Assembly (NCBI GenBank): GCA_028280615.1
Contig: JANQLK010000051.1
Span: 1-64,000 of the forward strand
Source: Woeseiaceae bacterium
GTDB taxonomy: Bacteria; Pseudomonadota; Gammaproteobacteria; Steroidobacterales; Woeseiaceae
Direction: 5' to 3'
DNA length: 64,000 nucleotides
The translations under genes and the position numbers were made by a program. The notes under the pieces are model-generated. The model searched no databases. It had not been told where the DNA came from and saw nothing but the letters and a program-made list of their open reading frames with translations. Every line of letters begins with the position of its first letter. Position 1 is the first letter of the stretch. Positions 34,578 to 44,315 of this stretch are shown here, piece by piece.

Positions 34578-35369
34578 ATGCTCGTCGAGCAGATCTGGAC
34601 CGGCAACGCGCTCAGGAACTTCAACTACCTGGTTGCCTGCCCCGAAACCGGCGAGGCGCTCGCCATCGATCCGCTCGAGTTCGATCGCTGCCTTGCGGTC
34701 GCCAATGACCGCGGCTACACGATCACCCAGATCCTCAACACGCACGAGCATCGCGATCACATCGGCGGCAACTCAGGCATGGTCAAGGCGACGGGTGCCA
34801 AGCTCATCGCGCACAAAAACGCGAAGAATCGCATTCGCAATATAGACCGCGGCGTCGGCGCGAGCGACGTCATCAAGGTCGGCAAGACCGTCGAGTTCGA
34901 ATGCCTCGACACGCCTGGGCACACGATGAGCCACATCTGCCTGCTGTCACACACCGACCAGCCGGCGCTGTTCAGCGGCGACACGCTGTTCAACGCGGGC
35001 GCGGGCAATTGCCACAACGGCGGGCACCCCGAGGAACTCTACGAGACTTTCGAGAATCAGCTCTCGAAGCTCGACGACGACACGCTGATCTACCCGGGCC
35101 ACGACTACCTCGTCAATAACCTCCAGTTCACGCTGGACCGCGAGCCGGACAACGACGACGCACGCGATATGCTGACCCGCCTCGCAAACCACGATCCGGC
35201 CAACGCGCCTGTCACGACGCTCGCCGACGAACGAAGGATCAACACGTTCTTCCGCCTAGACAGCTCCGGCGTCATCGCGACGCTTACGCGCGAGTTCCCG
35301 GAGATCGGGGATGCACCGAATGCCCGCACGGTGTTTCTCAAGCTCAGGGAGTTGCGTAACAGCTGGTGA
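34578..35369 (+). CDS. gloB: Hydroxyacylglutathione hydrolase (glyoxalase II)
   Basis: A 263-residue metallo-beta-lactamase-fold enzyme hydrolysing S-lactoylglutathione. The dinuclear metal motif is THEHRDHIGGN (about residues 54-64), with DTPGHTMSH, FSGDTLFNAGAGNC and PGHDYLVNN. The C-terminal helical domain ends FLKLRELRNSW. Start ATG 34578, 3 nt after the amidohydrolase stop. The last 69 nt are found again, diverged mainly at synonymous sites, at 37468-37536 next to an IS30 remnant. Confidence 0.94.
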   Translation: MLVEQIWTGNALRNFNYLVACPETGEALAIDPLEFDRCLAVANDRGYTITQILNTHEHRDHIGGNSGMVKATGAKLIAHKNAKNRIRNIDRGVGASDVIKVGKTVEFECLDTPGHTMSHICLLSHTDQPALFSGDTLFNAGAGNCHNGGHPEELYETFENQLSKLDDDTLIYPGHDYLVNNLQFTLDREPDNDDARDMLTRLANHDPANAPVTTLADERRINTFFRLDSSGVIATLTREFPEIGDAPNARTVFLKLRELRNSW

Positions 35370-36434: not shown

Positions 36435-36495
36435 TAGCCTCGTGGGTCAGAAATAGGCCAGATGAGTCCTTTCATAAATCCGCCTTGCGTCAACA

Positions 36496-36575
36496 CCAGC
36501 CGCCCAACTGATACTGCGCCGAAGGGCTGCCGTGCAAAGTATACCGGCCGGTCAACGATGTTCACGTGGTAACGT
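36496..36575 (-). repeat. 80-bp dispersed repeat, copy A
   Basis: About 90% identical (72 of 80 by eye) to copy B at 42107-42186, in the same orientation. On the minus strand both lie between the 3' end of one gene and the start of the next minus-strand gene, cassette-like. It includes ACCGGCCGGT (a palindrome) and, on the minus strand, an imperfect stem around TTCGGCGCAGT. In one frame it could encode NIVDRPVYFARQPFGA, which is interrupted by a stop in copy B. Confidence 0.8.
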
Positions 36576-36621
36576 GCCGGCCAGGCGACCGCAACCGGCC
36601 GGAAGCAGCCAGTCGTTGACG

Positions 36622-37383: not shown

Positions 37384-37475
37384 ATGAAGCAGAGAGCGAG
37401 GATCTAGCACACACAGTCGCAGATTGCTCAGATGTGGGATTGCTGGCGAGAAGGCGTCTCGCTGAACGAGATCGG
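37384..37475 (+). pseudogene. IS30-family transposase remnant (N-terminus only)
   Basis: A strong SD (AGGAGGTG) precedes ATG 37384. Translation reads MKQRARI, a stop codon, then HTQSQIAQMWDCWREGVSLN-E-I, which aligns with the N-terminal helix-turn-helix of IS30 transposases (MKQRxRIYYTExQKxxMWDRWxxGESLxxIA). The stop (TAG) replaces the usual Tyr codon. After about 31 codons the sequence switches at GAGATCGG into the gloB 3' end, so all the catalytic part is lost. The upstream 40-50 bp with ggttgcaacacc may hold the left inverted repeat. Confidence 0.65.
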
Positions 37476-37536
37476 TGACGACCCCGACCCTGAAACCGTG
37501 TTCCTCAAGCTCCGGGAGCTGCGCAACAGCTGGTAA
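37468..37536 (+). pseudogene. Orphan copy of the gloB 3' end
   Basis: These 69 nt encode EIGDDPDPETVFLKLRELRN-SW and a stop, matching the last 22 codons of gloB at 35301-35369. Differences are largely synonymous (for example ttt/ttc, agg/cgg, ttg/ctg, cgt/cgc), which points to an origin in a related functional gloB rather than recent duplication. No gloB sequence precedes it; the left border is the IS30 remnant, with GAGATCGG shared at the junction. Confidence 0.8.
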
Positions 37537-40273: not shown

Positions 40274-40702
40274 TCATTTGCAGCATGCCGCACAGAATGA
40301 CTGGAGATAGACACCGACGCTCGCCTCAACGCCGCCGATCTTGTTCGTCGACTGTCGATAGAACATAGAATTGAGTTCGGTTTCGGGGCGGCCATCGTTC
40401 CAGTCGTCGTAGTGTTTGAGTTCAAACCTGCCGAGTCGCCTGACGGCCCTCGACGTGACCAGGATTTCGACGCTGACGCGAGGCGTCCACCTGTCGACAC
40501 CGGACGGCTTCGGCAGTGCCCTGGCTGCGGTCACGACGCCGGCGGCGACCAGCCCCTGCCCACCCTGGGTTTCACTCGCGAAGATGTAGATTTTGTGGCC
40601 TGCGGTAATCTTCTTACCGCCGTACATGGTTTTCTGGGCATCGAAGCGCATCGTTTCGGCCGACGGGTCGCTGACTTCCGTCTTGATTACGTATGCCTTC
40701 AT
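40274..40702 (-). CDS. EVE/PUA-like domain protein, copy a
   Basis: A 142-residue protein, roughly 70% identical over its first 120 residues to the gene at 42275 (shared FDAQKTMYGGKKI, FASETQGGQGLVA.GVV, GVDRWTPRV, DGRPETE, FYRQ.TNKIGG). The pattern of a small beta barrel with a GD/GH-x-IYVFASE strand and a final FYRQ...GG resembles EVE/PUA-like domains that bind modified bases; this is by pattern only. Its last ~20 residues (VGVYLQSFCAACCK) differ from the paralogue and are in lower-GC sequence, as though the 3' end had been replaced. Last gene of the candidate nuclease cluster. Confidence 0.7.
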   Translation of the reverse strand: MKAYVIKTEVSDPSAETMRFDAQKTMYGGKKITAGHKIYIFASETQGGQGLVAAGVVTAARALPKPSGVDRWTPRVSVEILVTSRAVRRLGRFELKHYDDWNDGRPETELNSMFYRQSTNKIGGVEASVGVYLQSFCAACCK

Positions 40703-40741
40703 TGGCGCTCAAGACGTTCCGCAGATCCACTATCAATGAAA

Positions 40742-40834
40742 TCACTTCTTCGGAATGAGGCTCAAATCAAATTCAAATGCACCAGCTCGCTCAAGTATCT
40801 CCTTCTCGTTAAACGCTAGTTGCTCGTACGTCAC
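40742..40834 (-). CDS. Possible 30-residue coupled ORF
   Basis: GTG 40834 overlaps the stop of the GIY-YIG gene (GTGA) and opens a 30-codon frame ending at 40742: MTYEQLAFNEKEILERAG, then AFEFDLSLIPKK. The product would be an acidic-basic amphipathic helix with a short tail. The stop/start overlap and in-operon position are the only support; it could also be a decayed remnant. Confidence 0.35.
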   Translation of the reverse strand: MTYEQLAFNEKEILERAGAFEFDLSLIPKK

Positions 40835-41280
40835 CTGACGATTCCTGCCGAATTATCGGTAGTTGATAGATTCGCGATCAAGTATTCCTCCAGGGCGGCC
40901 GCCTCGAACCTTAGCTCATCGAGCATGCGGACTGTGGCGACGTATCTTGGGCTGCCTCTCCATGATTGTGGGTGCTTGATCTTGCATTTCCTCTCCTTAT
41001 CAAACACGAAATATGAACTTAGTCTGATACCAATGGAACTGTTCATCGAAGCCTTTCCGATGTACACAAGATTCAAGCCCGTATCGAGAATGGCATATAC
41101 ACCTGCGGATTCGCCGCCAGGCCACGAATCTGGCCAAACATAGTCGGCATGGCTGTCCCCCAGTTCGGGAAAGAGGTCATACAGTCCACTTACCTCCAGT
41201 GGTTCAAGATCCGGGTGCCTGAATCGGAAGTGATACGCGCCTACGAGGTCTCGAAACTCCGCGAGAGTCGACTGAGTCAC
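40831..41280 (-). CDS. GIY-YIG-type nuclease domain protein
   Basis: A 149-residue protein. The GIY-YIG core is present: GVYAIL (60-65), YIGKAS (73-78), an Arg in IGIRLSSYF (86), and the metal-binding Glu in AALEEYLI (131/132) followed by Asn (TTDN, 143). The ~55 residues before the core are not part of the usual fold. GTG 41280 is chosen because GGGAGG lies 5 nt upstream; GTG 41286 would overlap that SD. GC is clearly lower than in housekeeping neighbours. It lies between a PD-(D/E)XK nuclease and an EVE-like gene on the same strand. Confidence 0.75.
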   Translation of the reverse strand: MTQSTLAEFRDLVGAYHFRFRHPDLEPLEVSGLYDLFPELGDSHADYVWPDSWPGGESAGVYAILDTGLNLVYIGKASMNSSIGIRLSSYFVFDKERKCKIKHPQSWRGSPRYVATVRMLDELRFEAAALEEYLIANLSTTDNSAGIVR

Positions 41281-41433
41281 TATCACCTCCCAGATGCATT
41301 ATCGCGTCAAACATTTGTGGTCGGAAAACCAGGAGCCAAACCCTACGACCCAAAGCCGCCACTAATCATTGTCCTATTAGTGCTTAGACAGGGCGCGGCA
41401 ATTCATTGCAGTTCAATGAGATTCACAGCGGAA

Positions 41434-42057
41434 CTACTGATCGAGAACGACGATCCTTCCTTCAATCGAAACGAAGACTATCGATATCTTTGTTCTGGAC
41501 TTAGCTAGGGCAGGAAGTCGATCCCAAAGGCCGCGATACTGTGGAAGGTCCGGTAGAGCGATTGAGTATCTGGCCGCAGAATCATCCATTCGCTGTAGAG
41601 TCTCACCTAGTATTCCGATGAAGTAATTCACTCTCATTGGCTGTCGTGACCCCGGTCCTTTTACTTCAATAATCCAACGCTCGGATCCCCTGCGGGCGTC
41701 GATATCGATTCCTTTAGCTCTGCCCCATGCAACTTCGGCCTCCCAACCTTCCTTCGTCAGCCATTCGTGAAGAACACGCTTTATCTCATCCTCCGACAGA
41801 GCATCGACGTCGTGATTCTTGCTTGCTGATGTCTGTATATCGGAATCTGGTTGGTAATCACCGATAGGAAAATTCCCGATCAAACCATCCGTCCTGCGTC
41901 TGCGCTGCAGAAGTCTTTTGGACTCGAGCAGTCGAGCAGCCTGATTAACGGGTTGCTGATTGTCAGATGGAGTCTTAATGGTATTTGTGACCTCTCGATC
42001 AGTTAGACCTGGACGAGACGCAATCAGGTTCAGTATTTCCTGCTGGAGAGTTGGCAT
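41434..42057 (-). CDS. Winged-helix plus PD-(D/E)XK nuclease protein
   Basis: A 207-residue protein. Residues 1-65 look like a winged helix (ILNLIASRPGLTDREVTNTI, VNQAARLLESKRLLQRRR). The C-terminal half has a restriction-endonuclease-like core: helix EIKRVLHEWLTKEGWEAEVAW, then GIDIDARRG (Asp 118) and RWIIEVKG (Glu131-x-Lys133), followed by a helix-rich end. This D...ExK layout is that of Mrr-type and related nucleases. ATG 42057 is preferred over the longer frame to 42123 because the extra 22 codons come from the 80-bp repeat. Lower GC than the chromosome average here. Confidence 0.75.
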   Translation of the reverse strand: MPTLQQEILNLIASRPGLTDREVTNTIKTPSDNQQPVNQAARLLESKRLLQRRRRTDGLIGNFPIGDYQPDSDIQTSASKNHDVDALSEDEIKRVLHEWLTKEGWEAEVAWGRAKGIDIDARRGSERWIIEVKGPGSRQPMRVNYFIGILGETLQRMDDSAARYSIALPDLPQYRGLWDRLPALAKSRTKISIVFVSIEGRIVVLDQ

Positions 42058-42106
42058 TTGGTCGCAATCCTCGCCGGACTGGCGAGAGTCCGCTTTGTGG
42101 TCCACG

Positions 42107-42186
42107 CCAGCCGCCCAACTCAAACTGCGCCGAAGGGCGGCTATGCAAAGTATACCGGCCGGTCAACGATGTTTCCGCGGTAACGT
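42107..42186 (-). repeat. 80-bp dispersed repeat, copy B
   Basis: Partner of copy A (36496-36575). On the minus strand AGCCGCCC and GGGCGGCT form a perfect 8-bp stem around ttcggcgcagtttgagtt. The 3' part GAGTTGGGCGGCT is also found after both tRNA-Pro terminator copies (14849-14861 and 15011-15023). Confidence 0.8.
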
Positions 42187-42214
42187 CGCCGTATATTCCA
42201 TTCGGCGGCAGCGC

Positions 42215-42276
42215 AGCCGGGAGAGTATTCCTGATTCGCCGATCGAAATCGCCTCACAGTCAGAATGCTCCCGGCT
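42215..42276. repeat. Inverted repeat after the EVE-like copy b gene
   Basis: AGCCGGGAG (42215-42223) and CTCCCGGCT (42268-42276) are perfect 9-bp arms, with partial pairing continuing inward (TATTCCTGA against TCAGAAT). The right arm overlaps the stop codon of the EVE-like gene. No T-run follows, so a simple terminator is unlikely. Confidence 0.55.
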
Positions 42277-42685
42277 AGAAAAACTCGTCGAGAAACCCGG
42301 CCGCCTCCGGCGACAGTCCACCGATCTTGTTCGTCGCCTGGCGATAGAACTTGAAGTTGATCTCGGTCTCGGGGCGGCCATCGTCCCAGTCGTCGAAGGC
42401 TTTGAGTTCCGCCCGTCCGAGCCGGCGCGTCGGCCTCGCCGTCACGCGAAGCTCGACGTTGACGCGCGGCGTCCACCTGTCAACTCCCGGCGGCCTCGTG
42501 ACGGCCGAGGTATTCGTGACGACGCCGCGCGCGACCAGGCCCTGCCCGCCCTGGGTCTCGCTCGCGAAGACGTAGATCGTGTCGCCTTCAGCGATTTTCT
42601 TGCCGCCGTACATGGTCTTTTGCGCATCGAAGCGCATCTTCTCGGCGCCTGGATTCCTGACTTCCGTTTTGATCACGAATGACAT
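42275..42685 (-). CDS. EVE/PUA-like domain protein, copy b
   Basis: A 136-residue protein, complete version of the paralogue at 40274. It begins SFVIKTEV and carries FDAQKTMYGGKKIAEGDTIYV in part, ASETQGGQGLVARGVV, RWTPRVNVEL and a C-terminal FYRQATNKIGGLSPEAAGFL, the last resembling the closing helix of EVE domains (x-L-S-x-E). EVE domains bind modified bases and are often fused to or encoded beside restriction nucleases. It is the first gene of the cluster in transcription order and is followed by the repeat copy B. GC is near the genomic level, unlike the two nuclease genes. Confidence 0.72.
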   Translation of the reverse strand: MSFVIKTEVRNPGAEKMRFDAQKTMYGGKKIAEGDTIYVFASETQGGQGLVARGVVTNTSAVTRPPGVDRWTPRVNVELRVTARPTRRLGRAELKAFDDWDDGRPETEINFKFYRQATNKIGGLSPEAAGFLDEFF

Positions 42686-42712: not shown

Positions 42713-43252
42713 TCAGTCGCCTACCGGCGCTGCGACGTCGATTGCAACGGCCTTGTAGTGAATCGTGTCGCCGAACGGGGATTGGTCGTCGTTGGCAGCC
42801 GATGCGGCTATCAGGAATTCGATGCAATCGGCCTCTGCGTCGGGCGCCTGCCATTCGATATGCCAGCGAAGCTCTCCACCGACGGGTCGAGGTGATGTCG
42901 AGCGCCCCGCAGCGCCGACAACTTCGACGTCCTCGTCACGGGTCACGAGCATGCCGTTATCCTTGCCAGCGCCGCGGATCGTCAGCTGGAAACCCGAGGT
43001 CACGGCCGTATCCGATGCAAAGGCCAGCGCCAGTCGGTATCGCCGGCCCGGCGTAGCGATCTCAGGCAGACCTTCGACGCTGAGCGCAGCCGAATCCATG
43101 ACCGGTTCGTAGTCGTAGTGGCAGCTCGCGCAGGACTCCGTGGCATCGGGGTCCGAGGCGCCCCAGGGCGCGCCGTCCGGATAGGCGCCGGCGCCGCCGG
43201 CCGCCAGTAAGAGCGCGGCGGCCACGAGAGCGCTGCTATTTGTCGGGCTCAA
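42713..43252 (-). CDS. Secreted CxxCH protein with Reeler/choice-of-anchor-V-like domain
   Basis: A 179-residue protein beginning with TTG 43252 inside the end of the upstream gene (16-nt overlap). Signal peptide ALVAAALLLAAGGAGA. ESCASCHYDYEP contains one CxxCH haem c site right after the signal. A single beta-sandwich follows: LPEIATPGRRYRLALAF, TSGFQLTIRGAG, LRWHIEWQAPDAE and GDTIHYKAVAI, resembling the choice-of-anchor V / Reeler domains of secreted cytochrome-like proteins. Probably a periplasmic haem protein; partner unknown, though tight coupling links it to the Vgb-like propeller. Confidence 0.72.
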   Translation of the reverse strand: MSPTNSSALVAAALLLAAGGAGAYPDGAPWGASDPDATESCASCHYDYEPVMDSAALSVEGLPEIATPGRRYRLALAFASDTAVTSGFQLTIRGAGKDNGMLVTRDEDVEVVGAAGRSTSPRPVGGELRWHIEWQAPDAEADCIEFLIAASAANDDQSPFGDTIHYKAVAIDVAAPVGD

Positions 43253-44243
43253 CGATCGCGCGGCCGATATAGTTCGTGTCGGTGCCGAACCAGACGGCGC
43301 CGGACGGTTCGTGATAGTGCATGTGCCGGATCGTGCCGCCGCCCGAGCCGATCTCGGTCGCATCGATGAATTCGCGCGTCTCAGGGTCGAAGCCGATGAA
43401 CACGTTGGGCTGCACGCCTGAAGCAACCATCCACAGCCGGCCGCTCGAATCCGAGGCCATTCCGTAGGGCCGCGCGCCCTCGCCCTGCGGCATCTGCCAT
43501 TCCTCGAATCCGTCTTCGTCGGGGTCGTAGACGCCCAGCATGCCCTTCGCATAGTCGACGTACCAGACCCGGCCATCATCCGTTACCTCGAGTCTGCGCG
43601 GTCGCGCCTCGGCGCGCGGCAGCTCGATTTCGACGTGCTCGAGCGTCTCGGGATCGACGTGCGCGAGCTTGTTCGTGCCGAACAGCACGACCCAGACCGA
43701 GCCGTCGGGCGCCATCTTGATGCCGTAGGGCCGCGAGCGTTCGGTCGTCGACTCGATCAGGTCCACCTTGCGCGTCGCGATGTTGAGCCGCCCCATGCGG
43801 TTGCCGCCCTGCACCGTGAACCAGATGTTCTCCTCGCCCGCGTCGAACACCAGCGTGTGCGGATCGCGCGCCGCCTCGTCGGGCATCATGACCTCTTCGA
43901 CGTCGCCGCTATCGGGGTCGTAGCGGCCGATGAGCCGCGTACGGTTGCCGGCGTACCAGACGATGCCGTCCGAGCCGACGATCAGGTTATGCGGGCCGGA
44001 ACCCTCCTTGAGGTCGACCTTCGTGAATTCTCCCGACTCGGCATCGAGGTGCGCCAGGTAGCCCGACCGCTGGCCGACGAACCAGACCGAGGTAGCGCTT
44101 TCGGCGAACGGGTCGCGCGGGCGGGAGTTCTCGTAGGGCACCTGCCACTCGCGGACGTCGAGTGGCTCGGCGCCGGCGAGACAGGGAGTGAGCAGCGCCG
44201 AGGCAATTGCCACCAGCACCGCGCCGGACAAACGGATGTTCAT
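43236..44243 (-). CDS. Secreted Vgb-like beta-propeller protein
   Basis: A 335-residue protein with a signal peptide (LVAIASALLTPCLAGA). Seven repeated blades with VWFVGQRSGYLAHLD, IVWYAGNRTRLIGRYD, IWFTVQGGNRMGRL, SVWVVLFGTNKLAHVD and VWYVDYAKGMLGVYD make it a virginiamycin-B-lyase/NHL-like propeller. True Vgb lyases are cytoplasmic with a catalytic His; here a streptogramin lyase role is not claimed. ATG 44243 has GAGGAG 7 nt upstream and begins the signal peptide. The next gene overlaps its end. Confidence 0.8.
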   Translation of the reverse strand: MNIRLSGAVLVAIASALLTPCLAGAEPLDVREWQVPYENSRPRDPFAESATSVWFVGQRSGYLAHLDAESGEFTKVDLKEGSGPHNLIVGSDGIVWYAGNRTRLIGRYDPDSGDVEEVMMPDEAARDPHTLVFDAGEENIWFTVQGGNRMGRLNIATRKVDLIESTTERSRPYGIKMAPDGSVWVVLFGTNKLAHVDPETLEHVEIELPRAEARPRRLEVTDDGRVWYVDYAKGMLGVYDPDEDGFEEWQMPQGEGARPYGMASDSSGRLWMVASGVQPNVFIGFDPETREFIDATEIGSGGGTIRHMHYHEPSGAVWFGTDTNYIGRAIVEPDK

Positions 44244-44315
44244 CGGTCGCCTCCTCAAATCATCGAATCGCGTCAACAGGGTCGTCAACGCTATCACAGC
44301 CTGCCTGCCCGGCAA

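Follow-up and report, generated by a model that had tools for sequence, protein, structure and literature searches.

Organization of the locus

A group of five open reading frames (ORFs) on the minus strand was analyzed at positions 40274-42685 of contig JANQLK010000051.1 from a Woeseiaceae bacterium (GCA_028280615.1); the window means the whole stretch of 64,000 nucleotides, positions 1 to 64,000 of this contig. An initial annotation had read the group as a mobile four-gene defence cassette, in which EVE-like proteins sense modified DNA and two nucleases cut it. The ORFs were present at about the coordinates claimed. In order of transcription, the locus contains EVE1, copy 2 of a direct repeat, PDX, GIY, an ORF of 30 codons and EVE2. 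EVE1 (42275-42685) encodes an EVE-fold protein of 136 amino acids. After a gap of 217 bp, which holds the repeat copy, follows PDX (41434-42057), which encodes a protein of 207 amino acids with a predicted winged helix (residues ~1-78) and PD-(D/E)XK domain (~88-207). GIY (40831-41286) begins 147 bp further on with a GTG start codon and encodes a putative small GIY-YIG protein of 151 amino acids. The 30-amino-acid ORF (40742-40834), whose status is uncertain, overlaps the end of GIY by 4 bp, and EVE2 (40274-40702), which encodes the 142-amino-acid sister paralogue of EVE1, begins 39 bp after it.

The nuclease genes had been described as lower in G+C content (GC) than their flanks, and this was confirmed. 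GC was 0.50 in PDX, 0.52 in GIY and 0.45 in the 30-amino-acid ORF, in comparison with 0.63 in EVE1, 0.59 in EVE2 and 0.64 in the window. At third codon positions it was 0.83 in EVE1, like the neighbouring genes, 0.74 in EVE2, 0.57 in GIY and 0.49 in PDX (counted from 42123). The PDX frame stays open upstream to a TTG at 42123; the numbering of D118 and E131-x-K133 in the annotation fits the ATG at 42057 and is used here.

EVE1 and EVE2 belong to an EVE-fold family

The EVE fold reads chemically modified bases. The EVE/PUA-like fold proposed for both genes was supported by structure prediction, made on EVE1 (predicted local distance difference test score, pLDDT, 92.9; predicted template modeling score, pTM, 0.88), and by fold search, in which the nearest structures were THYN1 and related proteins. 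However, Pfam EVE (PF01878) did not match EVE1 or EVE2, and none of the four locus proteins reached a Pfam gathering score. Only 1 of 36 aligned family members matched Pfam EVE (E 0.079), and comparison of the family with three EVE proteins of the genus by hhalign gave an E value of 0.17 and a probability of 0.4%. Because the curated score was not reached and the profile comparison was this weak, EVE1 and EVE2 are classed as EVE-fold proteins and not as members of Pfam EVE. The genome also encodes a normal EVE protein elsewhere (215.5 bits). Residues Q21, K22, T23, M24 and Y25 were invariant in the 36 aligned members, and this stretch aligned, weakly and non-significantly, with a different motif in the genus's normal EVE proteins.

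One scan confirmed 237 relatives, and this sizeable EVE-fold family below the Pfam EVE threshold is a useful by-product of the analysis. The best 80 of the 237 were taken as EVE-family loci; they came from Pseudomonadota, Verrucomicrobiota, Acidobacteriota, Planctomycetota, Actinomycetota and Vulcanimicrobiota. Each had a single EVE copy and neither PDX nor GIY, and pairwise identity was 61-83% (median 71) among the 34 of them that were aligned. A gene of one family, aldose epimerase-like by eye, ended 4-69 bp upstream of the EVE gene in 13 of the 80 loci. No match was found in 72,556 plasmid records, and two were found in viral contigs. Among 149 genomes (its own and relatives), the family was present at E 0.001 only in the window's genome. 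By these sequence comparisons it looks like a slow-evolving, chromosomal gene. Bell et al. (PMC7641849) divide EVE proteins into a slow-evolving kind, found in conserved chromosomal settings, and a fast-evolving kind, found in defence settings, and the window's family appears to resemble the former. It shares with stand-alone EVE proteins and THYN1 the fold, size, single domain, slow evolution and lack of plasmid matches, but its sequence is too distant for Pfam EVE.

EVE1 and EVE2 are 68% identical and were placed as sisters against 80 others in a quick tree without bootstrap (Shimodaira-Hasegawa-like approximate likelihood ratio test, SH-aLRT, 97). The end branch of EVE2 (0.57) was about four times as long as that of EVE1 (0.15). 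EVE2 also departed from 10 of the 65 columns conserved in 34 other members, whereas EVE1 departed from 4. The sister placement, the branch lengths and these departures are why we read the pair as a local duplication in which EVE2 appears less constrained. The pairwise comparison gave a synonymous divergence (dS) of 0.92 and a ratio of nonsynonymous to synonymous divergence (dN/dS) of 0.23, values that do not separate the two branches.

PDX probably combines a winged helix with a PD-(D/E)XK domain

The model of PDX, made from a five-row alignment (pLDDT 79.2, pTM 0.54), showed a winged helix followed by a nuclease core with D118 and E131-x-K133; E89 also lies in this domain. Structure prediction and fold search thus agreed with the winged-helix PD-(D/E)XK protein annotated, and we assign this fold with moderate confidence. 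In the fold search the winged helix matched MarR- and ArsR-type regulators. The structures nearest to the nuclease domain were XisH 2inb and 2okf, and AF2093 2ph7 was equally close. PDX scored 16.3 bits against Pfam Mrr_cat, below the cut of 21, and NCBIfam and PADLOC gave only weak matches to the locus proteins, for PDX ZorD at 10.3 bits. A sequence search of the PDB returned nothing for the single PDX protein and weak rows only for the alignment query. PDX shares the fold and catalytic pattern of XisH and Mrr-like domains, but falls below their curated scores and carries an added winged helix.

The PDX family was counted at nine places. Relatives were present in 1 of 368 other genomes of the class and 1 of 195 other genomes of the order. 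They were also found on four viral contigs when the alignment was the query, whereas the single PDX protein found none there. A profile search of 299 genomes of the phylum matched, besides the genome itself, only G519 (1/298), which was dropped from the counts since its 21.6 bits were too weak and tblastn did not match it. Phage records had no PDX match at an E limit of 0.1. Among plasmid records, 27 had matches and four were opened: relatives lay on an Enterobacter plasmid, on a 3-kb plasmid of E. coli and on a Nocardioides plasmid, there 2.8 kb from an McrC-family gene. One genome (G269) carries a broken copy with 74% identity in the nuclease domain. A second species of the genus (L195, 4011-7090) has a full-length relative next to an IS110 transposase gene, beyond which lies a gene for an N6_N4 DNA methyltransferase.

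A Chloroflexota plasmid (L085, 4016-4687) encodes a protein in which a winged helix related to that of PDX (32.5% identity over 115 residues, E 2e-5) is combined with a GIY-YIG-like domain; the latter is annotated as GIY-YIG, and Pfam GIY_YIG_2 matched it only at E 0.033. This protein shares only the winged helix with PDX and was excluded from the nine places. That a PD-(D/E)XK protein and a GIY-YIG protein carry related winged helices is a second useful by-product; it agrees with the literature, in which restriction nucleases are seen to have winged helices in common.

GIY is a putative small GIY-YIG protein

The GVY (residues 62-64) and YIG (75-77) motifs annotated in GIY were found, and the glutamates placed at 131/132 proved to lie two residues on, at E133/E134; R88 and N145 complete the set. 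The motifs were kept in two aligned relatives. The score against Pfam GIY-YIG was 15.9 bits, below the cut of 22.6, and the weak NCBIfam and PADLOC matches were to UvrC (18.5 bits) and UzuA (13.4 bits). These motifs and weak profile matches are the basis on which GIY is assigned as a putative GIY-YIG protein. The PDB search again gave nothing for the single protein and weak rows for the alignment query.

Relatives of GIY were found at seven places: in 2 of 368 other genomes of the class, in 3 of 298 other genomes of the phylum by profile, and on two viral contigs by alignment query; the single protein found none on viral contigs. The profile matched 70 of the 299 phylum genomes, of which the genome itself, G537, G770 and G418 were kept. 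The other 66 were dropped (19-25 bits); they lie mostly in frames of 550-900 residues and were read as UvrC, not each of them being checked, and three sit in shorter frames (369, 106 and 72 residues). Plasmid records had no GIY match, nor did phage records at an E limit of 1. One relative follows a type III restriction gene at a distance of 139 bp. For another, a type I restriction gene is 3.4 kb away, and the gene between the two is by eye a tyrosine recombinase. A third has AbiEii and RES genes as neighbours, together with a match to AbiEi below threshold. The two on viral contigs are near the contig ends. GIY shares the GIY, YIG, Arg, Glu and Asn motifs with the N-terminal domain of UvrC and small GIY-YIG nucleases; it differs in being a stand-alone protein of 151 amino acids, and 3 of its 7 relatives are near restriction or toxin-antitoxin genes. 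The likeness of both nucleases to restriction nucleases, as annotated, was upheld.

The three families were not found together at the sampled places

Neighbourhoods were compared at 98 places outside the window (82 EVE, 9 PDX and 7 GIY), a sample and not a census, with flanks that ranged up to about 8 kb and were almost absent where contigs ended. No pair of the EVE, PDX and GIY families was present at any of them. A reader and a nuclease fused or recurrently adjacent, the arrangement by which Type IV systems are recognized, were likewise seen at 0 of the 98 sampled places. The two nuclease families were seen separately, and the genes around them were of restriction, toxin-antitoxin, phage or plasmid type, or of no special note. 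A literature search found no title or abstract opening that names this gene set. The 30-amino-acid ORF had no homologue by tblastn in the loci examined or by eye downstream of five GIY relatives, the only searches made for it.

The absence of recurrence in the places examined, a result that the initial annotation had named as refuting its reading, makes the genes look like chance neighbours and not a new defence system. Together with the chromosomal look of the EVE family, it left the annotated mobile cassette, with EVE proteins sensing and nucleases cutting, unsupported.

A probable composite locus

The explanation that we favour, and consider reasonably probable, is a composite locus, in which a tandem EVE duplication received one or two solitary restriction-type nucleases between its copies and which is not a system. 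An EVE-fold gene from the slow-evolving chromosomal family would have been acquired by the lineage, probably, and duplicated in tandem; EVE1 would have kept its sequence while EVE2 drifted faster. One or two solitary nuclease genes, PDX and GIY, probably also acquired, would then have been inserted between the copies. The ligand of the EVE-fold proteins, bound in the EVE pocket, may be a modified nucleotide of cellular RNA or DNA. PDX and GIY may act independently as cargo DNases on incoming DNA, with PDX positioned by its winged helix. The analysis shows the folds or motifs with their catalytic residues, the EVE paralogy, the contrast in base composition and the lack of co-occurrence at the places examined; the order of events, the ligand, the target and the nuclease activity are inferred.

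Several observations weigh against this explanation. Co-occurrence was tested on 98 places only, some of them cut by contig ends, and these covered 80 of the 237 EVE relatives and 4 of the 27 PDX plasmid records. In the tree, 50 of 79 inner branches were open and EVE2 was flagged as a long branch, so that its placement is unsure. The catalytic Glu of PDX is aligned with Thr in the relative from the same genus (L195), and 2 of the 7 GIY places (L192 and L194) had no defence-type neighbour by eye. The tight spacing of GIY, the 30-amino-acid ORF and EVE2 has the look of an operon. On one viral contig (L106, 3859-5366), there is a 4-bp overlap between a PDX-family gene and the gene for an EVE-like protein of 367 amino acids. 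The N-terminus of this protein weakly matches EVE (12.5 bits, cut 23). Its C-terminal part has matches in 173 plasmid records, and some of these are annotated as type II restriction endonuclease. The pair is a hint that nucleases of the PDX type can accompany an EVE-like protein; a serine recombinase gene (named by eye) is nearby. Finally, Bell et al. (PMC7641849) report that in archaea EVE proteins standing alone occur repeatedly with a predicted restriction system, so that a stand-alone EVE reader would be possible in principle.

Alternative explanations

The alternatives are not mutually exclusive. In one, which we consider possible but unlikely, PDX alone would sense N6-methyladenine as a winged-helix type IV enzyme, in the manner of the winged-helix fusion endonucleases of Helbrecht et al. 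(2024), with GIY and the EVE copies as bystanders; this can be compatible with the composite locus. The enzymes reported there as N6-methyladenine-dependent (PMC11037411) include winged-helix-GIY-YIG and PD-(D/E)XK-winged-helix proteins, and the predicted folds of PDX and the related winged helix of L085 show the same combination of a winged helix with these nuclease folds. However, the domain order of PDX is reversed, its winged helix being N-terminal to the PD-(D/E)XK domain, GIY has no winged helix, and sensing of N6-methyladenine by PDX is putative. Pfam did not match the winged helix of PDX, relatives matched MarR_2 below its cut, and no listed family was named DpnI. In the genus relative, moreover, the PDX gene is near a DNA methyltransferase gene, as with an ordinary restriction enzyme.

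That the locus is a cassette for modification-dependent restriction, its EVE proteins reading modified bases in trans and its two nucleases cutting, we regard as unlikely. The predicted EVE and PD-(D/E)XK folds, the tight spacing at EVE2, the viral PDX/EVE-like pair and the archaeal EVE proteins are consistent with it, as is the long branch of EVE2, since the defence EVE domains described in PMC7641849 are fast-evolving. Against it stand the 98 places without any two of the three families and the EVE family itself, with no plasmid match and neither nuclease in its 80 loci; moreover, the EVE restriction proteins that PMC7641849 describes are in many cases fusions. A narrower form of the idea, which we consider quite improbable, is that EVE2 was recruited after the tandem duplication as a stand-alone, in-trans reader of modified bases for the newly arrived PDX and GIY, giving a split, young modification-dependent restriction system. 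If true, it would show how a housekeeping EVE-fold reader is turned to defence. That PDX serves mobile elements as an XisH-like accessory protein, and is not a restriction enzyme, seems very improbable: the XisH profile did not match PDX up to E 1, and XisH chains (128-129 residues) align with its nuclease domain only. The XisH family search matched no genome, not even 14 controls, and was uninformative.

Repeats and traces of insertion

The direct repeat annotated as 80 bp was present and proved longer, with 103 alignment columns that are 86% identical (87 bp at 89% in another comparison). Copy 2 (42089-42191, minus strand) ends 31 bp upstream of the PDX ATG. Copy 1 (36479-36579), in the same orientation, lies 5.6 kb away between two other ORFs. 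A core of 26-44 bp, containing GTTACCGCGGAAAC, was also found at four further places in the genome, on four other contigs. Because copy 1 is beside other ORFs and the core recurs at these sites, the repeat looks like a dispersed intergenic element, and a role as cassette end was rejected. An integron attC site was also considered and dropped, since reading by eye for its two consensus boxes showed only one.

No clean empty site could be shown. At 18 loci with the gloB-like gene in genus relatives, no window gene from 35544 rightward was found, except for weak TonB matches in three, and two loci around the closest DUF885 relatives contained no other gene of the window.

The 3' end of the gloB-like gene (34578-35369; named by eye), at 35301-35367, is repeated 2.2 kb downstream at 37468-37534, with 75% identity over 67 bp and 87.5% over 40 bp. 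A second such end downstream of the gene was absent from 13 relatives examined. This copy has the look of a gene end that an integrating element displaced and left behind. A scan for promoters and terminators found 3 and 5 sites, where shuffled sequences gave 1.6 and 3.0, and was not informative. The gene at 43236-44315 scores as a member of the virginiamycin B lyase family (114.1 bits, cut 50).
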